64,000 bases of DNA, from assembly GCA_964020155.1 (NCBI GenBank), contig OZ026551.1, forward strand, positions 615,001-679,000, written 5' to 3'. Shown here in pieces: positions 16,170 through 62,612 of the stretch; position 1 is the first letter of the stretch, and each line of letters starts with the position of its first letter. Source of the stretch: Chondrilla cf. caribensis (taxonomy: Eukaryota; Porifera; Demospongiae; Chondrillida; Chondrillidae). Made by a program: the position numbers and the translations under genes. Under the pieces are notes generated by a model, which did not search any database, was not told the DNA's origin, and worked only from the letters and a program-made list of their open reading frames with translations.

Positions 16170-17336
16170 ATGGCCTCAAGACGTACCAGACGTAACCTTA
16201 AAACTCCAGTAGTAGTTGTTATTCTAAAGCACTCTTATTGCAGTGAAGAATACCAGTTTATTAGTAAAGATAAGAGTTTAGTGGAGAAGTACTTGTGTCC
16301 AATTTGTCACGAGATACTTCATGAACCAGTTCAGACCAGTTGTGGACACCTGTTTTGTGGGAAATGTTTGAAGGGAGTACAATCGAAGAACTGTCCTTCT
16401 TGTCGAGCAGAGTTCGTTAGAGAACCGATTGAAGACAAGTTCAATGAAAGGGAGATCAGAAACTTGATGGTTAAATGTCAGAACGGTTCCAGAGGGTGTG
16501 AGTGGGAGGGAGAACTAGGTAATGTTGAGTCCCATCAAAATGGTGTCTGTGGATACCAGTTGGTGCAGTGTGGCAACAAGTGTGGAGCAGAGATGGAGAG
16601 GAGAGAGGTTGAGAAGCACAAGAAAGACCACTGTGAACTGAGATGGTATGAGTGTCCTTATTGTCTGTTGCATTGGGATACATACAAGAAAGTAACAAGT
16701 GAACACTTCAAAGAATGTGATAAGTTTCCTCTTGAGTGTCCCAACAACTGTGGAAAGGAGAGAATTAGAAGAGTAGACATGTCATCTCATCTTGCTCTAT
16801 GTCCAGAAGAAGTGGTTCCATGTAAGTACCAGTCACTTGGGTGTGAGGTGAGGTTACTACGGAAAGAGATGGATGAACATTTAAGAGACAAGGAGACACA
16901 TCTGGACCTTGCCCTGGCAACTACATCAGAACTAGTTGCCAAACTAAACAAAGTAGAATCTGAATACAGCGTGACTAAAGTGGTCGTCAGCAACTTAGAG
17001 AAGCAGATGAGGGCAGTCCTCAAGAAGACATCCACTGAAGTAGAGCTCTCTCCTTCTGAAACTTCTGAAACAGATGAAGGACCATCTCAAAGACATGGAT
17101 ACACACCTGGAATATCTCAAATATATGGATACACACCTGGACCATCTCAAATATATGGATACACACCTGGACTATCTCAAATATATGGATACACACCTGG
17201 ACCATCTCAAAGACATGGATACACACCTAGACCATCTCAAAGACATGGATACACACCTGGACCATCTCAAAGACATGGATACACACCTGGACCATCTCAA
17301 AGACATGGATACACACCTGGACCATCTCAAAGATAA
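16170..17336 (+). CDS. TRAF-like protein B, MATH-less, with C-terminal 10-residue repeats
   Basis: Intronless, 388 residues from the ATG in strong context (AGAAATGG). RING (CPIC...CGHLFCGKC...CPSC), about five TRAF zinc fingers and the first part of the coiled coil (to KKTSTEVEL) match the array. Then the proline linker and the whole MATH domain are missing. In their place, after ETSETDE, come about eight copies of (G/R)PSQRHGYTP / GxSQIYGYTP and a stop. The repeat DNA derives from the segment that encodes [11 protein letters not shown] in other paralogues, joined in a different frame by unequal recombination. That original frame stays open from 17074 to 17460 and could encode 128 residues (DHLKDMDTHL repeats, then a coiled-coil tail). 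After the repeats the sequence jumps straight to the usual 3' block. It could act as a MATH-less dominant or regulatory TRAF, or be a decaying copy. Confidence 0.8.
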   Translation: MASRRTRRNLKTPVVVVILKHSYCSEEYQFISKDKSLVEKYLCPICHEILHEPVQTSCGHLFCGKCLKGVQSKNCPSCRAEFVREPIEDKFNEREIRNLMVKCQNGSRGCEWEGELGNVESHQNGVCGYQLVQCGNKCGAEMERREVEKHKKDHCELRWYECPYCLLHWDTYKKVTSEHFKECDKFPLECPNNCGKERIRRVDMSSHLALCPEEVVPCKYQSLGCEVRLLRKEMDEHLRDKETHLDLALATTSELVAKLNKVESEYSVTKVVVSNLEKQMRAVLKKTSTEVELSPSETSETDEGPSQRHGYTPGISQIYGYTPGPSQIYGYTPGLSQIYGYTPGPSQRHGYTPRPSQRHGYTPGPSQRHGYTPGPSQRHGYTPGPSQR

Positions 17337-17345
17337 GGATACACA
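17086..17345 (+). repeat. 30-bp exonic minisatellite open in two frames
   Basis: Nine copies of a 30-bp unit (GACCATCTCAAAGACATGGA followed by TACACACCTG). The gene's frame reads GPSQRHGYTP; the shifted frame reads DHLKDMDTHL. Both are stop-free through the array. AGACATGG and ATATATGG unit variants alternate. Confidence 0.95.
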
Positions 17346-17411
17346 CCTGGACATTGCCATGGCAACTACATCAGAACTAGCGGCCAAACTAAACAAAGTA
17401 GAATCTGAATA

Positions 17412-18284
17412 CATGTCCAATAGTGCACGTATACACTATCATGTATGTACAGTTGACTGACCATGAGTAGTATATTGTGTGTACTATAATAACACCATGC
17501 ATATCACAAACTAGTGACAATGTAATACAATAGTTGGACTACATATTACACCAATGTTACCGTACTTACTCTTATCACAGGCTGTATATTATATTGGAAC
17601 ATTATGCTAATGTATCTCATTATAACATGTACGTAGTTAGGCCTTAATTTGTATGCATATGTGTATGTACACTATTGATTTAAACCTGTATTGTTGACTG
17701 TTGTAATAATTGCAGTCTCTGTACAATTATAATTATTGATATATATTATTATCTTTCTCACACAAATGAATTCCAACCATGAATAATACATGTGGAGGTA
17801 GTGTAACATTTCCATAATCCACTGAATTACAATTTTACATAATATACTGAGGATGTATGGGGTCATTACACACAACATACACATACATACGTAATACTAT
17901 ATTATACATATACAACTGCATAATATACGTACTATGTAATAATAATACTATATTATACATAAAAATATATTATACATTTTCAATTGTCTGCGAATTATTG
18001 TTATATAGAGTATATAATATAATAATATAGTGTACATTAATTTACATATTGCAGAGCTGTAATGTACATGTATGGCAGGAGACACATCACAGGACATTCT
18101 ACAACACATCCGTCCAGGAGATATTTATACGACCTATTGAGGAGGACCTCTAACAATAATCTAAATAAATCTAACAATTTATTTATCATAGCATTCTGAA
18201 TTTACGTATATTCGACACAATCATTCCCCAATTCAAACACATTACAAATTGGCTATCAATCACATGCTAATCATGTGACAATGT
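17412..18284. other. conserved TRAF 3' block then AT-rich spacer
   Basis: From the remnant CCAATAGTGCACGTATACAC onward, about 340 bp are nearly identical behind every array gene (for example 22562-22860, 29099-29400, 35219-35560, 39063-39410, 51504-51850, 55647-55990, 62612-62960), so it is probably 3' UTR. The copies behind genes D and I lack about 180 bp. No canonical AATAAA is obvious in it. The rest is AT-rich and holds no gene. Confidence 0.7.
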
Positions 18285-18341
18285 TTACACATGAGCAATG
18301 GTGACTTCCACCTCCACACCAGGTTCGATGCTGATGGATGT
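18285..18341 (-). pseudogene. RPS20: isolated RPS20 last exon (fragment)
   Basis: An acceptor (TTTCAG) followed by TSISIEPGVEVEVTIA and a stop on the minus strand is the last exon of ribosomal protein uS10/RPS20, whose normal end is ADA. This copy ends AHV. No upstream exon 3 lies between it and the next exon 4 copy at 18943, so it cannot form a gene. Confidence 0.85.
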
Positions 18342-18886
18342 CTGAAATCAATTAAGGATGTAAACAAAAGCACATAAACAAACATCAACAAATGCACACT
18401 TAACAAGAGATGTACATATTATCAGTTCGTGAACTGTACTCAGTTGATGTATCATTATCAACATTATCCCATGACACAACACACTAAAATGTACTGTCTA
18501 TGTAATCCCTTATCCCTAATTCACAGATTTTATTTTCACAGATGTTAGGCCAACTTCGAAATCTGGAAAAAGTTTGTCCAGTGAAAATTTCCCACTCTAC
18601 GGTAGGACCAACTGGTCCAGCCGAATGTCCTCAGAATAGGCAGTGATGGTGTTACTGTACACACTGTTACAACCTGCTCTAAACTATCATCATGTAACAT
18701 GGCTACCTGTACACCAATGTTGGCTGGACTATTCTATCGTAACATCGCTATGTTGGGGGATTTTGTAGAAATCTAACAATTTATTCATCATAGCATTCCT
18801 AATTTAAGTATATTCAACACAATCATTCCCCAATTCAAATACATTACATATTGGCTATCCATCACATACTAATCATGTGACAATGT

Positions 18887-19468
18887 TTACGCATCAGCAA
18901 TGGTAACTTCCACCTCCACACCAGGTTCGATGCTGATGGATGTCTGAAATCAATTAAGGATGTAAACAAAAGCAAACAGGTAAACATCAACAAATTCACA
19001 CTTAACAACAGATGTACATATATTATCAGCTGGTGAACTGTACTCGATCGATGTATCATTATCGACATATCCCATGACAACAACACACAAAATGTATTGT
19101 ACAACACTACGTATGCACACTCTACAGCACTGTACTGTACAACAACGTACTGTACAACAGTCTACTGTGTAAACATGTACTGTACAATACTATACTGTGT
19201 TCTGTACTGTACAAATGTACACACTTCACAACAATGCATTGTAGTCCACAGCACACACAAGAGGATACAATCTTCTTGACGGTCTCGGCCGGGCTGTGCA
19301 GGTCAATCACCCTCTTGTGGATCCTCATCTCGAAGCGGTCCCAAGTCTTGGATCCCTCACCACAGGGGGTCTTCCTCATGGTGATCTTCAGGATCTTCGT
19401 TGGCATTCTGATTGGTCCCTTCACTCGGAGGTGCTCCTCTTTGGCACTCCGGATCAGGTCAGCACAGA
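18887..19468 (-). pseudogene. RPS20: RPS20 (uS10) exons 3 and 4, N-terminal exons absent
   Basis: Exon 3 (19468-19269) encodes [20 protein letters not shown] through [17 protein letters not shown] to ETVKKI, 66 codons, intact, with an acceptor TTTAG and a donor ATT|GTATCC. Exon 4 (18943-18887) encodes TSISIEPGVEVEVTIADA and a stop. Phases and exon boundaries match vertebrate RPS20 as I know it. The preceding exons (IHRIRITLTSR region and start) are not found in the 1.8 kb to the next TRAF gene. A functional head in a place not recognised cannot be fully excluded, but as seen this is a headless genomic copy that kept its intron, so it is not a retrocopy. Confidence 0.8.
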
Positions 19469-20493
19469 CTAAATGAGGCAAAATGACAAAAAGTGAATAC
19501 ACCAGAAAAAAACTGTTCATACTTGAAAAGATGCTGTTACTGTAAATGCATATCAATACAATAACATAATATTCCCATTCCAATTTGCTACAAGTGTGCA
19601 TTTTCTCATTCCCATTTGGTACAAACTTGACAAGATTGTCCCATTTTCTATAAACACTAGAACAAATTCTTTTTTTCCATTTAATACAAACTAAGAGTAA
19701 GTCCCCATTCCAACTTTACACAAGTTAACAATGTCCCCACTTCAATTTGCTATAAACACCAGAATAAGTTCCTGTTAACCATTCTGTACAAACAGTTGTA
19801 CATGAGTGGCCTACGTACATAGAGTACCAGGTCATCAGCCCTCCGTATGTGGCCCATAACGGAGAGTATCGAAGAAACAATGCTAAGTAAATTTTATATA
19901 GCTCATGGGAGAGGGGGCGTGTCAACTTGATATTTTTTACCAGATCTAGCTGTGGACATGAATTAATTCCTATTTCCATATGTGTCCTGTAACCAGAGCT
20001 ACATTCGGAGGTGCTTAGTATTTTTTCCATGTATGGGAGAGTATAGGAGAGAAAACATTAAGGACCTTTTTGTATAGCTCATGGGGGAGGGGGCGTGTCA
20101 ACTTGAACTTTTCACCAGACCTAGCTGGGGACGTGGATTAACATAACAAACAACTCCGTATCCCATCTCTGTACATGGCCCGTAACCCTAACTATATAAC
20201 CCCAGCTACATTGTGCTCAGTATTTCCCATAGTAGAGTGGGTGTATCAAGCCAATATTTGATCTGGACCTAGCTTAGATCTGACAATAATTACTAAAACA
20301 TTCCCCATCTCTGTAATAGGCCTGTAACACAAGCTATGTACATTCAGAGGTGCTTAATATACTTGCAGTGTATTATGGGAGAGAATGAGGGGGAAATGTT
20401 TCACACCTCCTGGTGTAGCTCATGGCAGAGGGAGCATAGTAATACACATGTACATCCACTACTTTTGAGGTTGTACAGAACCTGCATGTGGTG
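19469..20493. other. array spacer with dispersed ~200-bp repeats
   Basis: No gene. Contains several diverged copies of a roughly 200-bp sequence marked by TAGCTCATGGGAGAGGGGGC and GTGTCAACTTGA. The same sequence recurs in every inter-TRAF spacer (near 22900, 26470, 31480, 37400, 41800, 44830 and 48330). Confidence 0.7.
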
Positions 20494-20811
20494 ACTGTGA
20501 TGTACATGTTGTAGAGCTGTGATGTACATGTTGTACAGCCATGATGTACATGTTGTGGAGCTGTGATGTACATGTTTTACAGCTGTGGAGCTGTGATGTA
20601 CATGTTTTACAGCCGTGATGTACATGTTGTACAGCTGTGATGTACATGTTGTAGAGCTGTGATGTACATGTTGTACAAATGTGATGTACATGTTGTACAG
20701 ATGTGATGTACATGTTATACTGCTGTGATGTACATGTTGTACAGATGTGATGTACATGTTGTACTGCCATGATGTGCATATTGTACAGATGTGATGTACA
20801 TGTTGTAGAGT
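20494..20811. repeat. 22-bp minisatellite upstream of TRAF-like C
   Basis: Tandem 22-bp units built on GATGTACATGTTGTACAGC with variable CTG/CCG/ATG linkers. Three turns equal 66 bp, so all minus-strand frames stay open; the resulting His/Cys/Thr-rich open frames are artefacts. Confidence 0.9.
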
Positions 20812-21169
20812 GGTGTACTTGAGGTTGTACAGAACCTTTATGTGGTGTCCGTCAAGATGAAATCATTTTCATGGACGGTCACCACAGCCTCCCAGTGTCC
20901 ACATGACACACAGTAACTCAAACACACATGACATGTACACCCTCTGCATGTGCTATGGAGCTGGTGGGGACCATTGAGATGAGATAATCAATTATTGATG
21001 CTCACCACAAGACACTAGAGCTGTGTTCATGTGTATCCATACAACTTATAATGACAGGTACATGTATGAAGTGGGGAACTAAAGGTGATGTACATGTACA
21101 GCTAGCGACAAGGTCACATTTCTGAAAACTGCAGTGTTGTGTCATAAAGTATTATTGGTATGTTTAGTT

Positions 21170-21267
21170 CAGTCCTAATGATATTCATGACTTAACCCGA
21201 TTATCTTAATATGGAGTGATGGGGCGTGTCTGTGAGCATATTGACACGCCCACCCACATGTTCAGAA
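21170..21267 (+). promoter_or_regulatory. conserved 5' block of the TRAF array
   Basis: Sequence of the type TAATGATATTCATGACTTAA, TAATTATCTTAATATGGAGTG, GGGCGTGTCTGTGAGCATAT, CACCCACATGTTCAGAA immediately precedes the start codon. Equivalent blocks lie at 16078-16169, 24086-24183, 27697-27795, 32604-32702, 37703-37762 (shortened), 43081-43178, 45953-46050, 50102-50203 and 61222-61319. It contains a two-codon ATG-GRR-TGA and an 11-codon uORF overlapping the main start. Core promoter plus leader is the likely role. Confidence 0.6.
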
Positions 21268-22563
21268 ATGGCTTCAAGAGGTACCAGTCCTAGCCTTAAC
21301 ACTCCAGTAGTACCTGCTATTCTAAAGTACTCTTATTGCAGCAAAGAATACCAGTTTATTAGTAATGATAAGAGTTTTGTTGAAAGGTATCTGTGTCCAA
21401 TTTGTCATGAAATACTCTACAGACCAGTTCAAACCAGTTGTGGACACCTGTTTTGTGGGAGATGTTTGAGAAGAGCACGATCGAAGAACTGTCCTTCTTG
21501 TCGAGCAGAGTTTGAAGAAGAACCAAGAAGGGACAAGTTCCATGAAAGGGAGACCAGAAACTTGATAGTTAAATGTCAGAACGGCTACAGAGGGTGTGAG
21601 TGGGAGGGAGAACTAGGTAATGTTGAGTCCCATCAAAATGGTGTCTGTGGATACCAGTTGGTGCAGTGTGGCAACAAGTGTGGAGCAGAGATGGAGAGGA
21701 GAGAGGTTGAGAAGCACAAGAAAGACCACTGTGAACTGAGATTGTACAAGTGTCCTTATTGTCGGTGTTGGGATACATACAAGAAAGTAACAAGTGAACA
21801 CTTCAAAGAATGCCCTTTTTTTCCTCTTGACTGTCCCAACAACTGTGGAAAGAAGGGAATAAGAAGAGTAGACATATCATCTCATCTCGCTCTATGTCCA
21901 GAGGAAGTGCTTCCATGTAGGTACCAGTCCCTCGGGTGTAAGGTTAGGTTACCACGGAAACACATGAAGGACCATCTCAAAGAAAAGGACACACACCTGG
22001 ACATTGCCATGGCAACTACATCAGAACTAGTGACTGAACTAAACAAAGTAAAATCTGAACACAGTGTGAATAAAATGGCTGTCTGTAACTTGGAGAAGCA
22101 GATGAGGGCAGTCCTCAAGAAGACATCCACTCAAGTAGAGCTCCCTCCTCTTGTACCTCCTTCCAAACCTTGGTTGAAGGAAGACCTGTTCCCTCGCTAT
22201 TCTCCTTGTACACTGAGGGTGGGACTAGATAAGAATGGATATGGTGTCAGTCCTCACTTCTTCTCCCATCCTGGAGGGTACAGATTGGAGTTGAGGGCAG
22301 TTAGGAGATTAAGTCAATATGACATTGCTCCAGTCGATCATCCAGACAACTACCCACTAAAATGGCCTATTAAAATCACAGTCGAGTTTGTCTTCTTGAA
22401 TCAGGAGGAGGACAAGGATCATATCCATAGGAAGTGTTCAAGGGAAATCATTTCTCCGAAACACATTGTATGGCCCAACTACTGGTCACTAGAGACACTA
22501 CCACCAGGGTTTATCAAAGACAACAGTCTCCATATTAAAATAACCAGCGTTGATATCCAATAG
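21268..22563 (+). CDS. TRAF-like protein C (RING/zf-TRAF/coiled coil/MATH)
   Basis: Intronless, 431 residues. The start is the ATG in AGAAATGG; the upstream in-frame extension has only GTG codons and is rejected. RING (CPICHEIL, CGHLFCGRC, CPSC), about five CCHC TRAF zinc fingers (about 100-245), coiled coil (about 250-290), linker PPLVPPSKPW, and a MATH domain to the end ([40 protein letters not shown]). Variable loops read RCW in finger 3, RAVRRLSQYDIA in the first MATH loop and HIVWPNYWSLETLP in the second. By family it would trimerise through the coiled coil and bind receptor tails via MATH. The protein is identical to that of the gene at 43179-44474. Confidence 0.92.
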   Translation: MASRGTSPSLNTPVVPAILKYSYCSKEYQFISNDKSFVERYLCPICHEILYRPVQTSCGHLFCGRCLRRARSKNCPSCRAEFEEEPRRDKFHERETRNLIVKCQNGYRGCEWEGELGNVESHQNGVCGYQLVQCGNKCGAEMERREVEKHKKDHCELRLYKCPYCRCWDTYKKVTSEHFKECPFFPLDCPNNCGKKGIRRVDISSHLALCPEEVLPCRYQSLGCKVRLPRKHMKDHLKEKDTHLDIAMATTSELVTELNKVKSEHSVNKMAVCNLEKQMRAVLKKTSTQVELPPLVPPSKPWLKEDLFPRYSPCTLRVGLDKNGYGVSPHFFSHPGGYRLELRAVRRLSQYDIAPVDHPDNYPLKWPIKITVEFVFLNQEEDKDHIHRKCSREIISPKHIVWPNYWSLETLPPGFIKDNSLHIKITSVDIQ

Positions 22564-23350
22564 TGCACGTATATACTATCATGTATGTACAGTTGACTGA
22601 CCATGAGTAGTATATTGTGTGTACTATAATAACACCATTCATATCACAAACTAGTGACAATGTAATACAATAGTTGGACTACATATTACACCAATGTTAC
22701 TGTACTTACTCTTATCACAGGCTGTATATTATATTGGAACAGTATGCTAATGTATCTCATTGTAGCTTGTATGCTTATGGGTACATATACACTATTGGTT
22801 TAAACCTGTATTGTTGACTTTAAATTTAAATTTGTAATAATTGTAGTCTCTGTACAATTATAATTATTGGTACTTAATTTTTTCCATGTATGGGAGAATA
22901 TAGGAGAAATAAAATGCTAAGCACCTTTTTGTATAGCTCATGGGAGAGGGGGCGTGTCAACTTGAACTTTTCACCAGACCTGGTTGAGGACATGAACTAA
23001 CATATCAACCAATTCCCATCACCGTACGTAGCCCGTAACCCTAACTGTATAACCCCAGCTACATTGCTGCTCAGCATTTCCCATAGTAGAAGAGTGGGTG
23101 TGCATGTCAAGCCAATATTTGATCTGGACCTAGCTAAGGTCTGACCCTAATTTCTAAAACATTCCCCATCTCTGTAATAGGCCTGTAACCCTAGCTACGT
23201 ACATTCAGAGGTGGTTAATATATTTGCAATGTATTATGGGAGAGAATGAGGGGGAAATGTTACACACCTCCTGATGTAGCTCATGGCAGAGGAGGCATAG
23301 TGATACACATGTACATACACCACTCTTGAGGTTGTACAGAACCTGCATGT
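22564..23350. other. 3' block and spacer without RPS20 remnant
   Basis: Conserved TRAF 3' block to about 22860, then directly the dispersed spacer repeat (TAGCTCATGGGAGAGGGGGC at 22936). The RPS20-bearing part of the unit is missing here, as it is in the duplicate at 44475-45261. Confidence 0.7.
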
Positions 23351-23736
23351 GGTGACTGTGATGTACATGTTGTAGAGCTGTGATGTACAATGTCATGTTG
23401 TGGAACTGTGATGTACATGATGTAGAGCTGTGATGTACATGTTGTACAGCTGTGATGTACATGTTGTACAGCCGTGATGTACATGTTGTAGTGCTGTGTT
23501 GTACATGCTGTACAGATGTGATGTACATGTTGTACAGCTGTGATGTACATGTTGTACAGCCGTGATGTACATGTTGTACAGCTGTGATGTACATGTTGTA
23601 CAGCCGTGATGTACATGTTGTAGTGCTGTGTTGTACATGCTGTACAGCTGTGATGTACATGTTGTACAGCCGTGATGTACATGTTGTACAGATGTGATGT
23701 ACATGTTGTACAGGTGTGATGTACATGTTGTGGAGT
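23351..23736. repeat. 22-bp minisatellite upstream of TRAF-like D
   Basis: About 17 units of the GATGTACATGTTGTACAGC family, two units longer than the duplicate array at 45262-45603. One internal block carries the variant TGTTGTACATGCTGTACAG twice. Confidence 0.9.
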
Positions 23737-24173
23737 GGTGTACTTCAGGTTGTACAGAACCTTCATGTGGTAACTGTCAAGATGAAATCATTTTATGGAC
23801 AGTCACCACAGCCTCCCAGTGTCCACATGACACACAGTAACTCAAACACACATGACATGTACACCCTCTGCATGTGCTATGGAGCTGGTGGGGACCATTG
23901 AGATGAAATTATCATTTATTGACGCTCACCACAAGACACTAGAGCTGTGTTCATGTGTATCCATACAACTTATAACGACAGTACATGTATGAAGTGGGAA
24001 CTAAAGGTGATGTACAGCTAGAGACCAGGTCACATTTCTGAAAACTGCAGTGTTGTGTCATATCGTAGTATTGGTATGTTTAGTTCAGTCCTAATGATAT
24101 TCATGACTTAAACTAATTATCTTAATATGGAGTGAGGGGGCGTGTCTATGAGCATATAGTCATGCCCACCCAC

Positions 24174-24209
24174 ATGTTCAGAAATGGCCTCAAGAGATAC
24201 CAGACGTAG
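24174..24209 (+). promoter_or_regulatory. conserved overlapping uORF at the TRAF start
   Basis: ATG at 24174, ten bases before the main ATG, in weak context, encodes MFRNGLKRYQT and then stops inside the main coding region in another frame. The same out-of-frame ATG and a stop at the same codon are present at all array copies (for example before 16170, 21268, 27796, 32703, 37763, 50204, 54278, 58360 and 61320) but not at the RIOK1-nested copy. It could permit leaky-scanning control. Confidence 0.55.
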
Positions 24210-25488
24210 CCTTAACACTCCAGTAGTGCCTGTTATCCTAAAGTACTCTTATTGTAGCGAAGAATACCAGTTTATCACCCATGTTGAGAGTTTTGTTGAA
24301 AGGTATCTGTGTCCAATTTGTCAAGAGATACTCTACAAACCAGTTCAAACCAGTTGTGGACACCTGTTTTGTGAGAGGTGTTTGAAGAGAGTACGATTGA
24401 TAAACTGTCCTTCTTGTCGAGAAGAGTTCGTTAGAGAACCGATTGAAGACAAGTTCAATGAAAGGGAGATCAGAAATTTGATACTTAAATGTCAGAACAG
24501 CTCCAGAGGGTGTGAGTGGGAGGGAGAACTAGGTAATGTTGAGTCCCATCAAAATGGTGTGTGTGGATACCAGTTGGTGCAGTGTGGCAACAAGTGTGGA
24601 GCAGAGATTGAGAGGAGAGAGGTTGAGAAGCACAAGAAAGACCACTGTGAACTGAGAATGTACTGGTGTCCTTATTGTCCTATTTTTTCCGATTATAAGG
24701 ATACATACAAGAAAGTAACAAGTGAGCACTTCAAAGCATGTGCTTATTTTCCTCTTGACTGTCCCAACAACTGTGGAAGGAAGGGAATTAGCAGAGGAGG
24801 CATGTCATCTCATCTCGCTTTATGTCCAGAAGAAGTGGTTCCATGTAGGTACAAGTCCCTCGGGTGTAAGGTGAGGTTACCACGGAAACAGATGGGGGAC
24901 CATCTCAAAGACAAGGATACACACCTGGACATTGCCATGGCAACTACATCGGAACTAGTGAATAGGTTAAATAAAGTAGAATCTGAACACAGTGTGAGCA
25001 TCAGCAACTTGGAGAAGCAGGTTGATGCTCTCCTCAAGAAGACATCCACTGAAGTAGACCTCCCTCCTCCTGTACCTCCTTCCAAACCTTGGTTGAAGGA
25101 AGACCTGTTCCCTCGCTATCCTCCTTGTATATTGAGGGTGGAACTAGACAAGGACAGACGTGGTAGTGTTACTCCTCAATTCTTCTCCCATCCTGGAGGG
25201 TACAGACTGAAGTTGTGGGTAGGTAACTGTATAGATTATTCTGTCATTGATCCAGTTGATCATCCAGACAACTACCCATTAAAATGGCCTATTGAAATCA
25301 CAGTCAACTATGTCATCTTGAATCCGGAGGAGGACAAGGATCATGACCATAGGAAGTGTACAAGGGAAATCACTTCTCCAAAAGACACTGAGCCCATCTA
25401 TGATTATGACCTGTATGGGGATCTACCACCATGGTATATTGAAGACGACAGTCTCTATATCAAAATAACCAGCATTGATGTGCAATAG
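24184..25488 (+). CDS. TRAF-like protein D (RING/zf-TRAF/coiled coil/MATH)
   Basis: Intronless, 434 residues. RING ligands C43, C46, C58, H60, C63, C66, C75, C78. Zinc-finger cysteines and histidines run from C103/C110/H122/C127 through C134/C138/H150/C155, C162/C165/H182/C186 and C193/C197/H210/C214 to C221/C228/H240. Coiled coil about 250-290, proline linker 293-303, MATH 305-434. Finger 3 has an expanded loop (CPYC then PIFSDYK before DTYKK). The MATH loops are WVGNCIDYSVID and DTEPIYDYDLYGDLP, notably acidic and Tyr-rich. Protein identical to that of the gene at 46051-47355. Probable cytoplasmic receptor-proximal adaptor/E3 by family. Confidence 0.92.
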   Translation: MASRDTRRSLNTPVVPVILKYSYCSEEYQFITHVESFVERYLCPICQEILYKPVQTSCGHLFCERCLKRVRLINCPSCREEFVREPIEDKFNEREIRNLILKCQNSSRGCEWEGELGNVESHQNGVCGYQLVQCGNKCGAEIERREVEKHKKDHCELRMYWCPYCPIFSDYKDTYKKVTSEHFKACAYFPLDCPNNCGRKGISRGGMSSHLALCPEEVVPCRYKSLGCKVRLPRKQMGDHLKDKDTHLDIAMATTSELVNRLNKVESEHSVSISNLEKQVDALLKKTSTEVDLPPPVPPSKPWLKEDLFPRYPPCILRVELDKDRRGSVTPQFFSHPGGYRLKLWVGNCIDYSVIDPVDHPDNYPLKWPIEITVNYVILNPEEDKDHDHRKCTREITSPKDTEPIYDYDLYGDLPPWYIEDDSLYIKITSIDVQ

Positions 25489-26209
25489 TGTACGTATACA
25501 CTATCATGTATGTACAGTTGACTGACCATGAGTAGTATATTGTGTGTACTATAATAACACCATGCATATGTGTACGTACACTATTGATTTAAACCTGTAT
25601 TGTTGACTTTTGTAATAATTGCGGTTTCTGTACAATTATAATTATTGATATTATTATCTTTCTCACACAAATGAATTCCAAGCATGAGTAATACATGTGA
25701 GGTAGTGTAACATGTCCATAATCCACTGAATTACAATTTTACATAATATACTGAGGATGCATGCGGTCATTATACACGACATACACATACATATTATACT
25801 ATATATTATGTACACACAATTGCATAATATGCATACTTATGTACATAATTCGTATAATATATATAAACATATAATATAAATTATACATTTTCAATTGTCA
25901 GTGAATCATTGTTATATAGAGCTAGTATATAGTATTGTACATCAATATATGTGTAGAGCTGTACTGTACGTACATGTACGGAATGAAACACACCACACCA
26001 CATTGGCAGTGATGCTGTTACAACCTACACTGAACTATGGTCATGTAACATTGGTACACGTACACCAATGTTGGCTGGATAATTCTATGGTAACATTGCT
26101 CCCTTGTGGGAGTTTTGGTGAACATTCTACAATTTATTCATCACAGCATTCCCCAAATTGAACACATTACATATTGGCTATCAATCACATGCTAATCATG
26201 TGACAATGT
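25489..26209. other. shortened 3' block and AT-rich spacer
   Basis: The 3' block jumps from ACACCATGCATAT straight to GTGTACGTACAC, deleting about 180 bp kept in the other copies; the deletion joins two CATAT-containing sites. No gene follows before the RPS20 fragment. Confidence 0.65.
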
Positions 26210-26270
26210 TTACACATCAGCAATGGTGACTTCCATGCACCTCCACACCGGGTTCGATGCTGATGGATGT
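26210..26270 (-). pseudogene. RPS20: RPS20 last-exon fragment with 4-bp insertion
   Basis: Matches the TSISIEPGVEVEVTIAD exon on the minus strand, but TGCA is inserted (CTTCCATGCACCTCC), which shifts the frame. No exon 3 accompanies it. Confidence 0.85.
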
Positions 26271-27102
26271 CTGAATCAATTAATTAAGGATGTAAACAAA
26301 AGCAAACAAGTAAACATCAACAAATTCATACTCAACAAGAGATGTACATATTATCAGCTAGTGAGCTGTATTTGATCGATGTATGTTGCAATACAGTCCA
26401 CAATGAGTGGTGGAAGCAGTGTAGTGTTGCTTTGTATTTTTTAATGTATAAGAGAGTATGGGAGAAATATGCTAAGCACCTTTTTGTATAGCTCATTGGA
26501 GAGGTGTCAACTTGATATTTTCACCAGACCTAGCTGGGGACATGAACTAACTTATGAAAGAATTTTCATCTTCATATGTGGTCCGTTTATAACTCTAGCT
26601 ACGTTCCGAGGTACTTAAATGTATGGCAGAGTATAGGAGAAAATATGCAAAGCATCTTTTTGTATAGCTCTTGGGAGAGGGACTGTGTCTGCTTGGTATT
26701 TTACCAGACCTAGCTGAGGATGTGGACTAACATATGAAGCAACTCCAATCTCTGTACATGGTGCGTTAGCCCAGCTGCATTTGGAGGTGCTTACTATTTC
26801 CAATGTATGTAAGAGAATAAGGAGGAAATGTTAAGCACCATTTGACATAGCTCATGGTAGAGGGGGTGTGTCAAGCCAATATTTGATCTGGATCTATGTA
26901 GCTTAGGTCTAACACTAATTTCTAAACTATTCCCTTTAACCCCAGCTATGTACATTCAGATTTGCATGAAATGTTTGCAAAGTACTACGGTGGAGAATGA
27001 AGGGGAAATGTTACACACCTCCTGGTGTAGCTCATTGCAGAGGGAGCATAGTAATACACATGTGCATACACCACTCTTGAGGTTGTACAGAACTAGCATG
27101 TG
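26271..27102. other. array spacer
   Basis: Dispersed ~200-bp spacer repeats (around 26440-26820) and no gene. The near-identity with the right duplicate falls off from about 26723. Confidence 0.65.
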
Positions 27103-27350
27103 GTGACTGTGATGTACATGTTGTACAACCGTGATGTACATGTTGTAGAGCTGTGATGTACATATTGTACAGATATGATGTACATGTTGTACAGCTGTGA
27201 TATACAAGTTGTATACAGCTGTGATGTTGTAGAGCTGTAATGTACATGTTGTACAGCTGTGATGCACAAGTTGTACAGCCGTGATGTACATGTTGTACAG
27301 GTGTGATGTACATGTTGTACAGCCGTGATGTACATGTTGTAGAGTGATGT
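27103..27350. repeat. 22-bp minisatellite upstream of TRAF-like E
   Basis: About 11 units of the GATGTACATGTTGTACAGC family, with one shortened unit near 27225. Confidence 0.9.
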
Positions 27351-27795
27351 ACTTGAGGTTGTACAGAACATGCATGTGGTGACTGTCAAGATGAAATCAT
27401 TTTTATGGACGGTCACCACAGCCTCCCAGTGTCCACATGACACACAGTAACTCAAATACACATGACATGTACACCCTCTGCATGTGCTATGGAGCTGGTG
27501 GGGACCATTGAGATGAAATTATCATTTATTGACGCTCACCACAAGACACTAGAGCTGTGTTCATGTGTATCCATACAACTTATAATGACAGGTACATGTA
27601 TGAAGTGGGGAACTAAAGGGGATGTACAGCTAGAGACCAGGTCACATTTCTGAAAACTGTAGTGTTGTGTCATATAGTATTATTGGGGTGTTTAGTTCAG
27701 TCCTAATGATATTCATGACTTAACCTAATTATCTTAATATGGAATGAGGGGGTGTGTCTGTGAGCATATTGACACACCCACCCACATGTTCAGAA

Positions 27796-45261: not shown

Positions 45262-45603
45262 GGTGACTGTGATGTACATGTTGTAGAGCTGTGATGTACA
45301 ATGTCATGTTGTGGAACTGTGATGTACATGATGTAGAGCTGTGATGTACATGTTGTACAGCTGTGATGTACATGTTGTACAGCCGTGATGTACATGTTGT
45401 AGTGCTGTGTTGTACATGCTGTACAGATGTGATGTACATGTTGTACAGCTGTGATGTACATGTTGTACAGCCGTGATGTACATGTTGTAGTGCTGTGTTG
45501 TACATGCTGTACAGCTGTGATGTACATGTTGTACAGCCGTGATGTACATGTTGTACAGATGTGATGTACATGTTGTACAGGTGTGATGTACATGTTGTGG
45601 AGT
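45262..45603. repeat. 22-bp minisatellite upstream of TRAF-like I
   Basis: As at 23351-23736 but two units (44 bp) shorter, the main length difference between the two duplicated blocks. Confidence 0.9.
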
Positions 45604-46050
45604 GGTGTACTTCAGGTTGTACAGAACCTTCATGTGGTAACTGTCAAGATGAAATCATTTTATGGACAGTCACCACAGCCTCCCAGTGTCCACATGACAC
45701 ACAGTAACTCAAACACACATGACATGTACACCCTCTGCATGTGCTATGGAGCTGGTGGGGACCATTGAGATGAAATTATCATTTATTGACGCTCACCACA
45801 AGACACTAGAGCTGTGTTCATGTGTATCCATACAACTTATAACGACAGTACATGTATGAAGTGGGAACTAAAGGTGATGTACAGCTAGAGACCAGGTCAC
45901 ATTTCTGAAAACTGTAGTGTTGTGTCATATCGTAGTATTGGTATGTTTAGTTCAGTCCTAATGATATTCATGACTTAAACTAATTATCTTAATATGGAGT
46001 GAGGGGGCGTGTCTATGAGCATATAGTCATGCCCACCCACATGTTCAGAA

Positions 46051-47355: not shown

Positions 47356-48076
47356 TGTACGTATACACTATCATGTATGTACAGTTGACTGACCATGAGT
47401 AGTATATTGTGTGTACTATAATAACACCATGCATATGTGTACGTACACTATTGATTTAAACCTGTATTGTTGACTTTTGTAATAATTGCGGTTTCTGTAC
47501 AATTATAATTATTGATATTATTATCTTTCTCACACAAATGAATTCCAAGCATGAGTAATACATGTGAGGTAGTGTAACATGTCCATAATCCACTGAATTA
47601 CAATTTTACATAATATACTGAGGATGCATGCGGTCATTATACACGACATACACATACATATTATACTATATATTATGTACACACAATTGCATAATATGCA
47701 TACTTATGTACATAATTCGTATAATATATATAAACATATAATATAAATTATACATTTTCAATTGTCAGTGAATCATTGTTATATAGAGCTAGTATATAGT
47801 ATTGTACATCAATATATGTGTAGAGCTGTACTGTACGTACATGTACGGAATGAAACACACCACACCACATTGGCAGTGATGCTGTTACAACCTACACTGA
47901 ACTATGGTCATGTAACATTGGTACACGTACACCAATGTTGGCTGGATAATTCTATGGTAACATTGCTCCCTTGTGGGAGTTTTGGTGAACATTCTACAAT
48001 TTATTCATCACAGCATTCCCCAAATTGAACACATTACATATTGGCTATCAATCACATGCTAATCATGTGACAATGT

Positions 48077-48137
48077 TTACACATCAGCAATGGTGACTTC
48101 CATGCACCTCCACACCGGGTTCGATGCTGATGGATGT
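48077..48137 (-). pseudogene. RPS20: RPS20 last-exon fragment with 4-bp insertion (duplicate)
   Basis: Duplicate of 26210-26270 with the same TGCA insertion; no exon 3. Confidence 0.85.
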
Positions 48138-48969
48138 CTGAATCAATTAATTAAGGATGTAAACAAAAGCAAACAAGTAAACATCAACAAATTCATACTC
48201 AACAAGAGATGTACATATTATCAGCTAGTGAGCTGTATTTGATCGATGTATGTTGCAATACAGTCCACAATGAGTGGTGGAAGCAGTGTAGTGTTGCTTT
48301 GTATTTTTTAATGTATAAGAGAGTATGGGAGAAATATGCTAAGCACCTTTTTGTATAGCTCATTGGAGAGGTGTCAACTTGATATTTTCACCAGACCTAG
48401 CTGGGGACATGAACTAACTTATGAAAGAATTTTCATCTTCATATGTGGTCCGTTTATAACTCTAGCTACGTTCCGAGGTACTTAAATGTATGGCAGAGTA
48501 TAGGAGAAAATATGCAAAGCATCTTTTTGTATAGCTCTTGGGAGAGGGACTGTGTCTGCTTGGTATTTTACCAGACCTAGCTGAGGATGTGAACCAACAT
48601 ATGAAACAACTCCAATCTCTGTACATGGTGCGTTAGCCCAGCTGCATTTGGAGGTGCTTACTATTTCCAATGTTTGGAAGAGAATAAGGAGGAAATGTTA
48701 AGCACCATTTGACATAGCTCATGGTAGAGAGGGTGTGTCAAGCCAATATTTGATCTGGATCTATGTAGCTTAGGTCTAACACTAATTTCTAAACTATTCC
48801 CTTTAACCCCAGCTATGTACATTCAGATTTGCATGAAATGTTTGCAAAGTACTACGGTGGAGAATGAAGGGGAAATGTTACACACCTCCTGGTGTAGCTC
48901 ATTGCAGAGGGAGCATAGTAATACACATGTGCATACACCACTCTTGAGGTTGTACAGAACTAGCATGTG

Positions 48970-49235
48970 GTGACTGTGATGTACATGTTGTACAACCGTG
49001 ATGTACATGTTGTAGAGCTGTGATGTACATATTGTACAGATATGATGTACATGTTACAGCTGTGATATACAAGTTGTATACAGCTGTGATGTTGTAGAGC
49101 TGTAATGTACATGTTGTACAGCTGTGATGTACAAGTTGTACAGGTGTGATGTACATATTGTACAGCCATGATGTACATGTTGTACAGGTGTGATGTACAT
49201 GTTGTACAGCCGTGATGTACATGTTGTAGAGTGAT
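48970..49235. repeat. 22-bp minisatellite upstream of TRAF-like J
   Basis: About 12 units of the GATGTACATGTTGTACAGC family, homologous to 27103-27350 but with different unit order and number. Confidence 0.9.
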
Positions 49236-49601
49236 GTACTTGAGGTTGTACAGAACATGCATGTGGTGACTGTCAAGATGAAATCATTTTCATGGACGGT
49301 CACCACAGCCTCCCAGTGTCCACATGACACACAGTAACTCAAATACACATGACATGTACACCCTCTGCATGTGCTATGGAGCTGGTGGGGACCATTGAGA
49401 TGATATTATCATTTATTGACGCTCACCACAAGACACTAGAGCTGTGTTCATGTGTATCCATACAACTTATAATGACAGGTACATGTATGAAGTGGGGAAC
49501 TAAAGGTGATGTACAGCTAGAGACCAGGTCACATTTCTGAAAACTGTAGTGTTGTGTCATATATTTATCATATATTATGTCATATATTATTGGTATGTTT
49601 A

Positions 49602-50203: not shown

Positions 50204-51505
50204 ATGGCCTCAAGAGATACCAGTCGTAGCCGTAAGACTCCAGTAGTGCCTGTTATCCTAAAGTACTCTTATTGCAGCAAAGAATACCAGTTTATTAGTA
50301 AAGATAAGAGTTTTGTTGAAAGGTTTCTGTGTCCAATTTGTCAAGAGATACTTTATGAACCAGCTCAAACCAGTTGTGGACACCTGTTTTGTGGGAGGTG
50401 TTTGAGAAGAATACGATCAAAGAACTGTCCTTCGTGTCGAGCAAAGTTTGTTAGAGAACCACTTGAAGACAAGTTCAATGAAAGGGAGATCAGAAACTTG
50501 ATAGTTAAATGTCAGAACAGCTCCAGAGGGTGTGAGTGGGAGGGAGAACTAGGTAATGTTGAGTCCCATCAAAATGGTGTCTGTGGATACCAGTTGGTGC
50601 AGTGTGGCAACAAGTGTGGAGCAGAGATCAAGAGGAAAGAGGTTGAGGAGCATGAGGAGGACCACTGTGAACTGAGAATGTACAAGTGTCCTTATTGTTG
50701 GTGGCATAGGGATACATACAAGAAAGTAACAAGTGAACACTTCAAAGAATGTGCTTATTTTCCTCTTGACTGTCCCAACAACTGTGGAAAGAAGAGAATT
50801 GAGAAAAGAGACATGTCATCTCATCTCGCTATATGTCCAGAAGAAGTGATTCCATGTAGGTACCAGTCCCTCGGGTGTAAGGTGAGGTTACCACGGAAAA
50901 GCATAGAGGACCATCTCAAAAACAAGGAACAAACAAACACACACCTGGACATTGCCATGGTAACTACATCAGAACTAGTGGCTAAACTGAAAAAAGTAGA
51001 ATATGAAAACATTGTGACTAAAATAGCCATCAGGAACTTGGAGAAGCAGGTTGATGCTCTCCTCAAGAAGACATCCACTGAAGTAGAGCTCCCTCCTTTT
51101 GTACCTCCTTCCAAACCTTGGTTGATGGAAGACCTGTTCCCTTGCTATCCTCCTTGTACACTGAGGGTGGAACTAAACGAGTACAGATATGGTGTTACTC
51201 CTCACTTCTTCTCCCATCCTGGAGGGTACAGACTGGAGTTATGGACAGGTATAAATGCAAATTGCATTAATCCAGTCGATCATCCAGACAACTACCCATT
51301 AAAATGGCCTATCATAATCACAATCAAGGCTGCCTTCTTGAATCCGGAGGAGGAAAAAGATCATGTCCATAAGGAGTATTCTAGGATAATCACTTCTCCA
51401 AAAAACATCTGCCAGTTCTTCTTCTTGTCGTCTGAAATACCACCATCAAGGTTTATCAAAGACAACAGTGCCTACATTAAAATAGTCAGCGTTGATGTCC
51501 AATAG
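50204..51505 (+). CDS. TRAF-like protein J (RING/zf-TRAF/coiled coil/MATH)
   Basis: Intronless, 433 residues, start ATG in AGAAATGG. RING complete ([21 protein letters not shown]). Finger 3 loop WWHR. The last-finger/coiled-coil junction has an insertion (NKEQTNTHLDIAM against [11 protein letters not shown]). Linker [23 protein letters not shown] variable loops WTGINANCIN (short) and NICQFFFLSSEIPPS (strongly hydrophobic). A 498-bp MITE sits 105 bp upstream of the start codon, in front of the conserved 5' block, and separates it from the minisatellite, which could change its expression. Confidence 0.92.
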   Translation: MASRDTSRSRKTPVVPVILKYSYCSKEYQFISKDKSFVERFLCPICQEILYEPAQTSCGHLFCGRCLRRIRSKNCPSCRAKFVREPLEDKFNEREIRNLIVKCQNSSRGCEWEGELGNVESHQNGVCGYQLVQCGNKCGAEIKRKEVEEHEEDHCELRMYKCPYCWWHRDTYKKVTSEHFKECAYFPLDCPNNCGKKRIEKRDMSSHLAICPEEVIPCRYQSLGCKVRLPRKSIEDHLKNKEQTNTHLDIAMVTTSELVAKLKKVEYENIVTKIAIRNLEKQVDALLKKTSTEVELPPFVPPSKPWLMEDLFPCYPPCTLRVELNEYRYGVTPHFFSHPGGYRLELWTGINANCINPVDHPDNYPLKWPIIITIKAAFLNPEEEKDHVHKEYSRIITSPKNICQFFFLSSEIPPSRFIKDNSAYIKIVSVDVQ

Positions 51506-58336: not shown

Positions 58337-58359
58337 CACACCCACTCACATGTACAGAA

Positions 58360-59496
58360 ATGGCCTCAAGAGATACCAGTCGTAGCCTTAACACTCCAGT
58401 AGTGCCTGTTATCCTAAAGTACTCTTATTGCAGCAAAGAATACCAGTTTATTAGTAAAGATAAGAGTTTAGTGGAGAGGTACTTGTGTCCAATTTGTCAA
58501 GAGATACTTTGTGAACCAGTTCAAACCAGTTGTGGACACCTGTTTTGTAAAAAGTGTTTGAAGGGAGTACAATCAAAGAACTGTCCTTCTTGTCGAGCAG
58601 AGTTTGAAGAAGAACCAAGAAGGGACAAATTCAATGAAAGGGAGATCAGAAACTTGATAGTTAAATGTCAGAACAGCTCAAGGGGGTGTGAGTGGGAGGG
58701 AGAACTAGGTAATGTTGAGTCCCATCAAAATGGTGTCTGTGGATACCAGTTGGTGCAGTGTGGCAACAAGTGTGGAGCAGAGATGGAGAGGAGAGAGGTT
58801 GAGAAGCACAAGAAAGACCACTGTGAACTGAGATGGTATGAGTGTCCTTATTGTTTGTTGCATTGGGATACATACAAGAAAGTAACAAGTGAACACTTCA
58901 AAGAATGTGATAAGTTTCCTCTTGACTGTCCCAACAACTGTGGAAAGACGAGAATTAGAAGAGTAGACATATCATCTCATCTCGCTCTATGTCCAGAAGA
59001 AGTGGTTCCATGTAAGTACCAGTCCCTCGGGTGTGAGGTGAGGTTACTGCGGAAACAGATGGATGAACATTTAAGAGATAAGGAGACACATCTGGACCTT
59101 GCCCTGGCAACTACATCAGAACTAGTTGCCAAACTAAACAAGGTAGAATCTGAACACAGTGTGACTAAAGTGGCCATCAGCAACTTGGAGAAACAGATGA
59201 GGGCAGTCCTCAAGAAGACATCCACTGAAGTAGAGGTCTCTCCTCCTGAAACTTCTGAAACAGATGATGGACCATCTCAAAGACATGGATACACACCTGG
59301 ATCATCTCAAAGACATGGCTACACACCTGGACCATCTCAAATATATGGATACACACCTGGACCATCTCAAATACATGGATACACACCTGGACTATCTCAA
59401 ATATATGGATACACACCTGGACTATCTCAAATATATGGATACACACCTGGATCATCTCAAAGACATGGATACACACCTGGATCTTCTCAAAGATAA
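58360..59496 (+). CDS. TRAF-like protein L, MATH-less, with C-terminal 10-residue repeats
   Basis: Intronless, 378 residues. RING, TRAF zinc fingers (finger 3 loop LLHW as in gene B) and coiled coil, then ETSETDD and about seven copies of GxSQRHGYTP / GxSQIYGYTP before the stop. MATH is absent. The shifted frame (59264-59626) stays open as DHLKDMDTHL repeats. B and L thus share one rearrangement but differ in repeat number and order; L has the K-type chimeric leader while B has the normal 5' block. After the repeats, coiled-coil coding DNA runs straight into GTTGATGTCCAATAG, which shows a clean deletion of the MATH segment. Confidence 0.8.
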   Translation: MASRDTSRSLNTPVVPVILKYSYCSKEYQFISKDKSLVERYLCPICQEILCEPVQTSCGHLFCKKCLKGVQSKNCPSCRAEFEEEPRRDKFNEREIRNLIVKCQNSSRGCEWEGELGNVESHQNGVCGYQLVQCGNKCGAEMERREVEKHKKDHCELRWYECPYCLLHWDTYKKVTSEHFKECDKFPLDCPNNCGKTRIRRVDISSHLALCPEEVVPCKYQSLGCEVRLLRKQMDEHLRDKETHLDLALATTSELVAKLNKVESEHSVTKVAISNLEKQMRAVLKKTSTEVEVSPPETSETDDGPSQRHGYTPGSSQRHGYTPGPSQIYGYTPGPSQIHGYTPGLSQIYGYTPGLSQIYGYTPGSSQRHGYTPGSSQR

Positions 59497-60420: not shown

Positions 60421-60513
60421 ATATATTTATGTAATAATCTATATATTATAATTGTACAATTTTTAATAGTCAGTGTATTGTTGTTATTGTGCACACATGT
60501 ACGAGTATGTTAC

Positions 60514-60865
60514 TGTGATGTACATGTTATACGGCTGTGATGTATATGTTGTGCAGCTGTGATGTACATAATGTACAGTTGTGTTGTACATGTTGTAGAG
60601 CCGTGATGTAAAAGTTGTGGAGCTGTGATGTACATGTTGTACAGCTGTGATGCACATGTTGTAGAGCTGTGATGTACATGTTGTAGAGCCGTGATGTACA
60701 AGTTGTGGAGCTGTGATGTACATGTTGTACAGCTGTGATGTACATGTTGTAGAGCTGTGATGTACATGCTGTACAGCCTTGATGTACATGTTGTACAGGT
60801 GTGATGTACATGTTGTACAGGTGTGATGTACATGTTGTAGGGCTGTGATGTACATGCTGTAGAGT
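60514..60865. repeat. 22-bp minisatellite upstream of TRAF-like M
   Basis: About 16 units of the GATGTACATGTTGTACAGC family with more internal variants (AAGTTGTGGAGC). Confidence 0.9.
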
Positions 60866-61319
60866 GGTGTACTTGAGGCTGTACAGAACCTTGCTTCATG
60901 TGGTGACAGTCAAGATGAAATCATTCTTATGGACGGTCACCACAGCCTCCCAGTGTCCACATGACACACAGTAACTCAAATACACACGACATGTACACCC
61001 TCTGCATGTGCTATGGAGCTGGTGGGGACCATATTGAGATGAAATTATCATTTATTGACGCTCACCACAAGACACTAGAGCTGTGTTCATGTGTATCCAT
61101 ACGACTTATAATGACAGGTACATGTATGAAGTGGGGAACTAAAGGTGATGTACAGCTAGAGACCAGGTCACATTTCTGAAAACTGTAGTGTTGTGTCATA
61201 TAGTATTATTGGTATGTTAGTGCAGTCCTAATCATATTCATGACTTAACCTAATTATCTTAATATGGGGTGAGGGGTGTGTCTGTGAGCATATCATCATG
61301 CCCACCCACATGTTCAGAA

Positions 61320-62612
61320 ATGGCCTCAAGAGGTACCAGTCGTAGCCTTAACACTCCAGTAGTGCCTGTTATTCTAAAGTACTCTTATTGCAGCAAAGAA
61401 TACCAGTTTATTAGTAAAGATAAGAGTTTAGTGGAGAGGTACCTGTGTCCAATTTGTCAAGAGATACTTTATAAGCCACTTCAAACCAGTTGTGGCCACC
61501 TGTTTTGTGGGAAGTGTTTGAAAAGAGTGCAATCGAAGAACTGTCCTTCTTGTCGAGCAGAGTTCGTTAGAGAACCGATTGAAGACAGATTTAATGAAAG
61601 GGAGATCAGAAACGTGATAGTTAAATGTCAGAACAGCTCCAGAGGGTGTGAGTGGGAGGGAGAACTAGGTAATGTTGAGTCCCATCAAAATGGTGTCTGT
61701 GGATACCAGTTGGTGCAGTGTGGCAACAAGTGTGGAGCAGAAGTCGAGAGGAGAGAGGTTGAGGAGCATGAGGAGGACCACTGTGAACTGAGAAGGTACC
61801 TGTGTCTTTATTGTCAATGGCATGAGGATACATACAAGAAAGTAACAAGTGAACACTTCAAAGAATGTTATTATTTTCCTCTTGACTGTCCCAACAACTG
61901 TGGAAAGAAGAGAATTAGAAGAAGAGACATGTCATCTCATCTTTGTGCATGTCCAGAAGAAGTGGTTCCATGTAGGTACCAATCCCTCGGGTGTAAGGTG
62001 AGGTTACCACGGAAACAGATGGAGGACCATCTCAAAAACAAGGACACACACCTGGACATTGCCATGGCAACCACATCGGAACTAGTGACTAAACTAAACA
62101 AAGTAGAATCTGAACACAGTGTGTGCATCAGCAACTTGGAGAAGCAGATGAGGGCAGTCCTCAAGAAGACATCCACTAAAGTAGAGCTCCCTCCTCCTGT
62201 ACTTCCTTCCAAACCTTGGTTAAAGGAAGACCTGTTCCCTCGCTATCCTCCTTGCACACTGAAGGTGGAACTAGACAAGGACATATGTGGTGTTAGTCCT
62301 CACTTCTTCTCCCATCCCGGAGGGTACAGACTTGAGTTGCTGATAGATAGTTATGGCCTTTACATTGATCCAGTCGATCATCCAGACAACTACCCACTAA
62401 AATGGCCTATTGAAATCACCGTCAACTATATCATCTTGAATCAAAAGGAGGACAAGGATCATGTCCACGAGAAGTATTCAAGGGAAATCACTTCTCCAAA
62501 ACACACCATCCGGTCCATCCCCATGCTGTTTGAGTCAGGTAAGAGACCACCAGTAAGGTTCATCAAAAATAACAGTCTCTATATCAAAATAGACAGCATT
62601 CTTCTCCAATAA
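61320..62612 (+). CDS. TRAF-like protein M (RING/zf-TRAF/coiled coil/MATH)
   Basis: Intronless, 430 residues, start ATG in AGAAATGG. RING complete ([21 protein letters not shown]). Finger 3 reads CLYCQWHEDTYKK, with Pro to Leu between the cysteines. Coiled coil with SNLEKQMRAVLKKTST. MATH has variable loops LIDSYGLYID and HTIRSIPMLFESGKRPP, and an altered last strand (IKIDSILLQ rather than ITSVDVQ). The 3' block follows. Last complete array member before the window edge. Confidence 0.92.
   Translation: MASRGTSRSLNTPVVPVILKYSYCSKEYQFISKDKSLVERYLCPICQEILYKPLQTSCGHLFCGKCLKRVQSKNCPSCRAEFVREPIEDRFNEREIRNVIVKCQNSSRGCEWEGELGNVESHQNGVCGYQLVQCGNKCGAEVERREVEEHEEDHCELRRYLCLYCQWHEDTYKKVTSEHFKECYYFPLDCPNNCGKKRIRRRDMSSHLCACPEEVVPCRYQSLGCKVRLPRKQMEDHLKNKDTHLDIAMATTSELVTKLNKVESEHSVCISNLEKQMRAVLKKTSTKVELPPPVLPSKPWLKEDLFPRYPPCTLKVELDKDICGVSPHFFSHPGGYRLELLIDSYGLYIDPVDHPDNYPLKWPIEITVNYIILNQKEDKDHVHEKYSREITSPKHTIRSIPMLFESGKRPPVRFIKNNSLYIKIDSILLQ

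Follow-up and report, generated by a model that had tools for sequence, protein, structure and literature searches.

The window analysed here is a stretch of 64,000 nucleotides from the sponge Chondrilla cf. caribensis (C6:615001-679000, in a searched genome of 137 Mb and 37 contigs). It carries 13 uninterrupted open reading frames (ORFs) on the plus strand, designated copies A to M, that have a RING domain and TRAF-type zinc fingers (ZnFs) in common. In ten of the 13, a short coil and then a MATH domain follow towards the C-terminus; two of these ten (H and I) are recent duplicates. A fourteenth copy, N, lies just beyond the window end at C6:679373. The array is best explained as a tandem family of TRAF-kind RING-type ubiquitin ligases encoded by uninterrupted ORFs, which would be maintained by gene conversion, diversified in ligand specificity and used as a recognition set in defence or towards symbionts; the probability of this explanation as a whole is put at about 0.6. 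An earlier inspection of the letters alone (hereafter the sequence-only reading) had delimited the array to 16170-62612, an interval that takes in the other copies but leaves copy A outside. The copies, and the segmental duplication that affects some of them, are located as follows:

11544..12824, plus strand: copy A, RING-ZnF-MATH ORF of 426 amino acids (aa)
16170..17336, plus strand: copy B, RING-ZnF-coil ORF of 388 aa, with an out-of-frame 30-bp minisatellite (17079-17352) in place of MATH
18588..27676, plus strand: segmental duplication, first copy, containing C and D (partner 40517-49563)
21268..22563, plus strand: copy C, RING-ZnF-MATH ORF of 431 aa
24184..25488, plus strand: copy D, RING-ZnF-MATH ORF of 434 aa
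27796..29100, plus strand: copy E, RING-ZnF-MATH ORF of 434 aa
32703..33557, plus strand: copy F, truncated RING-ZnF ORF of 284 aa with a RING His to Tyr change, followed by a degenerate remnant (33493-33831)
37763..39064, plus strand: copy G, RING-ZnF-MATH ORF
40517..49563, plus strand: segmental duplication, second copy, containing H and I
43179..44474, plus strand: copy H, ORF identical to C
46051..47355, plus strand: copy I, ORF identical to D
50204..51505, plus strand: copy J, RING-ZnF-MATH ORF of 433 aa
54278..55648, plus strand: copy K, RING-ZnF-MATH ORF of 456 aa, loop 3 segment internally duplicated
58360..59496, plus strand: copy L, RING-ZnF-coil ORF of 378 aa, with an out-of-frame 30-bp minisatellite (59268-59512) in place of MATH
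61320..62612, plus strand: copy M, RING-ZnF-MATH ORF of 430 aa

A Pfam domain scan covered 10 of the 13 copies. In all 10, at least one RING family scored above its cut-off and the TRAF-type zinc fingers (PF02176) reached 60-80 bits against a cut-off of 27. Neither the B-box and B30.2 domains of TRIM/finTRIM proteins nor the BTB domain of MATH-BTB adaptors was listed in these 10 copies at E 0.1. The MATH domain remained below the Pfam cut-off in all seven MATH-bearing copies scanned, J being without any match. For copy C, residues 285-431 were modelled with a predicted local distance difference test score (pLDDT) of 72 and a predicted template modelling score (pTM) of 0.64. When this model was used in Foldseek, rows 1-39 were TRAF, USP7 or SPOP, with six titled only as E3-ligase ligand entries, and 48 of 50 VIA rows were titled TRAF, USP7, meprin, SPOP or SIAH, the other two being E3-ligase entries. 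As modelled, the C-terminal domain of the array has the MATH (TRAF-C) fold, an assignment regarded as established; close homology to any single TRAF is not established. A low-confidence full-length model, of which no use was made for loop placement, predicts helices in copy C spanning residues 240-264 and 269-286, which are candidates for the trimerising TRAF-N coiled coil.

Three copies are without an intact MATH domain: the frames of B and L enter the 30-bp minisatellite, and F stops early, the remnant behind it holding four stops. Together with the duplicated tail of K, these losses could mean that most copies are incipient pseudogenes and that the loop differences described below are debris. 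Such decay is hardly credible, however, as full frames are kept in 10 of the 13 copies and the ratio of nonsynonymous to synonymous substitution rates (dN/dS) is 0.25-0.33 across the RING and pre-RING region. Even the truncated B and L differ at fewer nonsynonymous than synonymous sites over codons 1-313 (proportions pN 0.047 vs pS 0.140), and these MATH-less copies may be functional truncated forms. A haplotype or collapsed repeat could have been placed twice in part of the array. The duplication core (approximately 19.5-26.5 kb) shows 1 mismatch in approximately 6.9 kb aligned, with three indel events, and H and I have zero nucleotide differences from C and D over their ORFs, so that they add no diversity. 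Still, the ends of the repeat diverge (22/398 and 19/493 bases differ in the first two 500-bp bins), the remaining copy pairs among the matches listed differ at approximately 8-16% of bases, and only H and I would be affected; an assembly artefact is considered improbable.

Three loops vary in both sequence and length, with adjacent DNA that is nearly constant. In copy C these loops are found at the following positions:

21763..21771, plus strand: loop 1, RCW, following the CPYC knuckle of zinc finger 3
22294..22329, plus strand: loop 2, RAVRRLSQYDIA, starting at the TRAF2 R393 position
22462..22509, plus strand: loop 3, HIVWPNYWSLETLPPG, aligned from TRAF2 S454 onward, with a deletion covering TRAF2 S467-C469

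The loop strings quoted in the sequence-only reading were all present, those of loop 1 being SLHR (A), RCW (C), PIFSDYK (D), RPYGGSYKDK (E), YQHK (G), WWHR (J) and QWHE (M), and the opposition it drew between a constant framework and hypervariable loops was borne out. With gaps counted, the mean pairwise nucleotide difference among nine copies was 0.41 for loop 1, 0.53 for loop 2 and 0.63 for loop 3; it was 0.07-0.17 for the N-terminus plus RING, linker-ZnF1-2, ZnF3-4, MATH strands 1-3 and codons 405-435, and intermediate for the coil (0.30) and codons 436-448 (0.32). Around loop 1, the 18 bases upstream are unchanged in 12 copies, and the downstream GATACATACAAGAAAGTAACAAGTGAA is nearly unchanged. 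Near-invariance, which had been attributed to the framework at large, is restricted to zinc fingers 1-2 (region averages of dN 0.03 and dS 0.10-0.12; with nine copies 0.03 and 0.12), the RING showing a dN of 0.09-0.11 and a dS of 0.27-0.34 (with nine copies 0.11 and 0.34). The corresponding nine-copy dN and dS values are 0.31 and 0.40 for the loop 1 segment, 0.88 and 0.44 for loop 2 (0.85 and 0.21 without A and K), and 0.97 and 0.99 for loop 3. Variable sites also occur within the ECxxFPLDC and CGKKxIxRxxM segments of zinc fingers 3-4, and within ELDKxxxG, the loop joining the first two MATH strands. In copy K, a tandem duplication around loop 3 has resulted in two loop 3 versions within one protein.

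To place the loops on TRAF2, its sequence was aligned with the array via three TRAFs of the same genome (L001, L005 and L006), the match between array and TRAF2 being weak (E 0.065). According to passages of PMC6125299, hot spot 1 of TRAF2 comprises F410, L432, F447, F456 and C469, hot spot 2 comprises S453-455, and R393 and Y395 contact the acidic residue of the receptor motif. Aligned in this manner, loop 2 begins at R393 (hot spot 3, R393/Y395), and loop 3 begins at S454, in the serine finger region and one residue after S453, and spans a deletion at S467-C469. The proposal that the loops occupy receptor-contact sites therefore fits loops 2 and 3 but not loop 1, which from alignment with TRAF6 lies in zinc finger 3, after the CPYC knuckle and outside MATH. 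Among the eight array copies listed, none retains Y395, S453-455, F456 or C469, and three (C, E and N) have Arg at the 393 position; L001, L005 and L006 retain R393, Y395 and C469. The array copies thus differ from the TRAF1/2/3/5 receptor-binding subtype in having most hot-spot residues altered or deleted. Consequently, TNF-receptor-type ligands are not indicated and, judging from their sequences, the array copies are not expected to be binders of the classical TRAF motif.

Evidence on how the framework is kept uniform came from relatives outside the array, namely X1 and X2, located approximately 140 kb away on the opposite strand, and Y3, located on C3. Over codons 49-240 (RING into zinc finger 4), X1 and X2 are approximately 84-98% identical to the array, loop 1 excepted. 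Between X1 and the array, synonymous sites are saturated in the N-terminus, the coil and most of MATH, whereas ZnF1-2 has a dS of 0.15 and identity reaches 98% over codons 106-145. Over codons 126-165 the identity to the array is 0.90-0.98 for X1 vs 0.60-0.61 for Y3, and conservation alone is therefore an insufficient explanation. The simplest cause of this likeness is ectopic gene conversion or some module transfer of the same effect. Purifying selection as the sole source of framework constancy was ruled out because of the identity jump in X1/X2. Nor can one signalling output, as the sequence-only reading had it, be read from framework constancy alone, since conversion homogenises the RING-ZnF segment even with two genes in which most synonymous sites of MATH are saturated.

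Exchange was also apparent within the array. The pairwise homoplasy index (PHI) test gave p 0.001 in both sets tested, and the fraction of incompatible site pairs was 0.37 (12 copies) and 0.18 (7 copies) within 15 bp, rising to approximately 0.5 or more beyond 30 bp. In combination, PHI and the four-gamete decay reveal frequent short-tract exchange. Loop 2 and loop 3 distances covary (r 0.65), and loop 1 distances are uncorrelated with loop 2 (r -0.11) and correlated with MATH strands 1-3 (r 0.60, p 0.002); the idea of a loop 1 fully independent of MATH was dropped on account of the latter correlation. D and K have near-identical loop 1 sequences and different loops 2 and 3, and A and X1 both have SLHR in loop 1 and very different MATH domains.

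Comparable patterns were found in three other sets of TRAF genes. Identity between X1 and X2 is 100% over codons 346-370 and 97% over 405-435, but 64% in loop 2 and 79% in loop 1; it is 92% in the loop 3 block. A group of six genes on C8 (group Q) is mirrored, with pS mostly 0.3-0.8 in RING-ZnF and mostly 0.0-0.25 in the MATH scaffold; here, as raw proportions, pN is similar to pS or higher in the loops that correspond to loops 2 and 3. In a further C8 group of seven genes (group S), RING-ZnF1 is homogenised and loop 3 variable, and pN did not exceed pS anywhere in MATH. All three sets examined therefore show module-wise homogenisation, either internally or relative to the array. Two of the three also show the loop 2 pattern.

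Selection on the loops was addressed with a codon model on region trees, the region boundaries having been set post hoc, after viewing the alignment. When dS was left free, the model put the dN/dS (omega) of loop 2 above 1 (p 3.4e-4, or 7.5e-6 when A was omitted), the estimate being 4.2-5.0 with dS tied to the flanks and 6.4 with dS free in nine copies. In five independent, hand-picked pairs, loop 2 showed a pN of 0.40 and a pS of 0.30, as compared with 0.07 and 0.14 in the flanks, its replacement rate being above that of the flanks (p 4e-24). A hand-chosen set of ZnF3-4 columns likewise gave omega above 1 (p 0.002). A blind scan of 104 overlapping segments in eight copies yielded nominal p<0.05 for omega above 1 in six, of which two covered the first MATH loop, three loop 2 and one the MATH start.

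Conversely, several observations weigh against diversifying selection on the loops, and with it against the recognition set proposed here. The raised dN/dS anticipated for the loops was recovered for loop 2, by region averages and codon model and nominally in the blind scan, but with dS free omega above 1 was not supported for loop 3 (p 0.45, 0.37) or loop 1 (p 0.16 with six selected columns and 0.77 with the segment as a whole), nor was it significant for codons 436-448 (p 0.18). In loops 1 and 3, hypervariability is accompanied by a raised dS, and omega cannot be told apart from 1, in part because their differing lengths leave the alignment arbitrary. None of the 104 segments of the blind scan survived correction, which weakens the case for selection on loop 2; within that loop pN vs pS was not significant in the five pairs (p 0.18), and its synonymous rate too was above that of the flanks (p 0.03). 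Taken together with the frequent short-tract exchange, these results would suit loops that are tolerant surface segments drifting neutrally under relaxed constraint, conspicuous because conversion erases divergence in their flanks. Such drift is nevertheless rather doubtful, as loop 2 dN exceeds dS in the codon model and in three of the four pairs tested from the window, and the homologous loop 2 position, a receptor contact in TRAF2, is also variable in an unrelated cluster. Loop 2, the only loop for which positive selection is proposed, has diversified strongly and probably under selection.

As an evolutionary pattern, the architecture, the conversion, the hypervariability of the loops and the alignment with TRAF2 hot spots are well supported. 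Under the preferred reading, that of a conversion-maintained ligase family with diversified ligands, unequal exchange and segmental duplication would create and destroy copies, and short-tract gene conversion would keep the RING-zinc finger module uniform, including in relatives approximately 140 kb away. The loops would escape this homogenisation, loops 2 and 3 at TRAF2 peptide-groove positions and others at the zinc finger 3-4 tips. A common ubiquitin output would come from the RING and zinc fingers 1-2, through which, as happens in TRAF6, a ubiquitin-conjugating enzyme would be recruited, and the MATH loops and ZnF3-4 tips of each copy would select its partner or target. The whole array would then act as a set of recognition ligases that is encoded in the germline and works inside the cell, most probably in defence or symbiont discrimination.

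The intact RING and zinc fingers would equally suit ordinary substrate-specific ubiquitin ligases acting on own proteins in development, housekeeping or reproduction, with no microbial or non-self role, and signalling and regeneration roles are proposed by the authors of a planarian TRAF/MATH expansion in portions of PMC6109357. This is judged unlikely: copy turnover, near-identical recent duplicates, truncations and groove-loop diversification would be more typical of conflict genes, and in a sponge, as excerpts of PMC13372038 have it, native bacterial symbionts transiently activate eight TRAFs, a response compatible with the immune reading although these TRAFs are not shown to be of the array family. 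More tentatively, clustered TRAF ligases in general might form a combinatorial germline repertoire in which gene conversion would swap and homogenise whole modules, namely the RING-ZnF of one family and the MATH scaffold of a second, and hypervariable cassettes (the zinc finger 3 loop and the MATH groove loops) would be re-mixed between copies, so that TRAFs rather than surface receptors would carry specificity.

Across the genome, 111 protein matches were recorded, with 97 of the 149 candidates scored; for zf-TRAF there were 151, with 150 of 241 scored, and for the MATH family PF21355 there were 85. These figures are matches and not gene counts, and the PF21355 list omits the array's own MATH domains. 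TRAF-related matches cluster on C5, C6, C7 and C8. At C5:5.588-5.716 Mb, more than 20 RING-zf-TRAF places are clustered, with no PF21355 MATH match listed there. SRCR domains gave 150 scored matches from 662 candidates, and their tandem clusters include those on C6, C10, C12 and C16. The TRAF and SRCR repertoires suggest an animal, probably a sponge. An active site of silicatein type was sought in 13 of 30 retrieved cysteine-peptidase loci and not seen, and Neur_chan_LBD had 0 matches, in a search whose control likewise gave none.

Next to the array are an exon encoding a protein kinase and a kinase of the RIO1 family, and two further repeated elements lie among its copies:

approximately 20497, 23356, 27107, 32122, 42408, 45267, 48974 and 60513: 22-bp minisatellite, CTGTGATGTACATGTTGTACAG
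19263-19469, 30840-31046, 41175-41357, 53047-53253 and 57122-57328, minus strand, as well as C6:682179: matches to a ribosomal protein S20 (rpS20) exon (PF00338)

The minisatellite is found less than approximately 1 kb upstream of 8 of 12 scanned TRAF copies (C, D, E, F, H, I, J and M) and may favour unequal exchange. The six rpS20 matches lie between TRAF genes, on the opposite strand; five are stop-free, and the sole other genome match listed (C21) contains a stop. The TRAF units and rpS20 seem to have been duplicated together.

TRAFs are usually regarded as conserved relays downstream of receptors. If the array is indeed a set of recognition ligases, specificity sits at the TRAF adaptor itself, in an animal probably without adaptive immunity, and the ways in which simple animals distinguish microbes or cells could be tested at a defined locus. 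No description of hypervariable-loop TRAF arrays was found in the open-access literature searched. Vertebrate TRAF1-6 have the same domain order and MATH fold, and the RING-ZnF of the array is sequence-related to TRAF6 and TRAF5; the array differs from them in consisting of uninterrupted tandem ORFs homogenised by conversion. MATH-BTB proteins are cullin adaptors with a BTB domain, without a RING or TRAF fingers of their own. In C. elegans their family (bath) is an expanded MATH family with a substrate-binding domain described as under positive selection, and MATH genes are induced by Orsay virus and microsporidia (from sections of PMC4334554 and PMC5392922). The TRAF sets of planarian and oyster share a lineage-specific increase in TRAF or MATH genes, but the text examined of PMC6109357 and PMC4346834 does not describe hypervariable loops or module-wise conversion. 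FinTRIM/TRIM5alpha proteins are likewise RING E3 ligases of a large duplicated family with recognition-domain loops under positive selection (PMC2657112), yet have B30.2 and B-boxes where the array has MATH and TRAF fingers, and the main text of PMC2657112 does not contain the term gene conversion. If the reading proposed here is true, the array is a TRAF counterpart to finTRIM and to nematode MATH-BTB.

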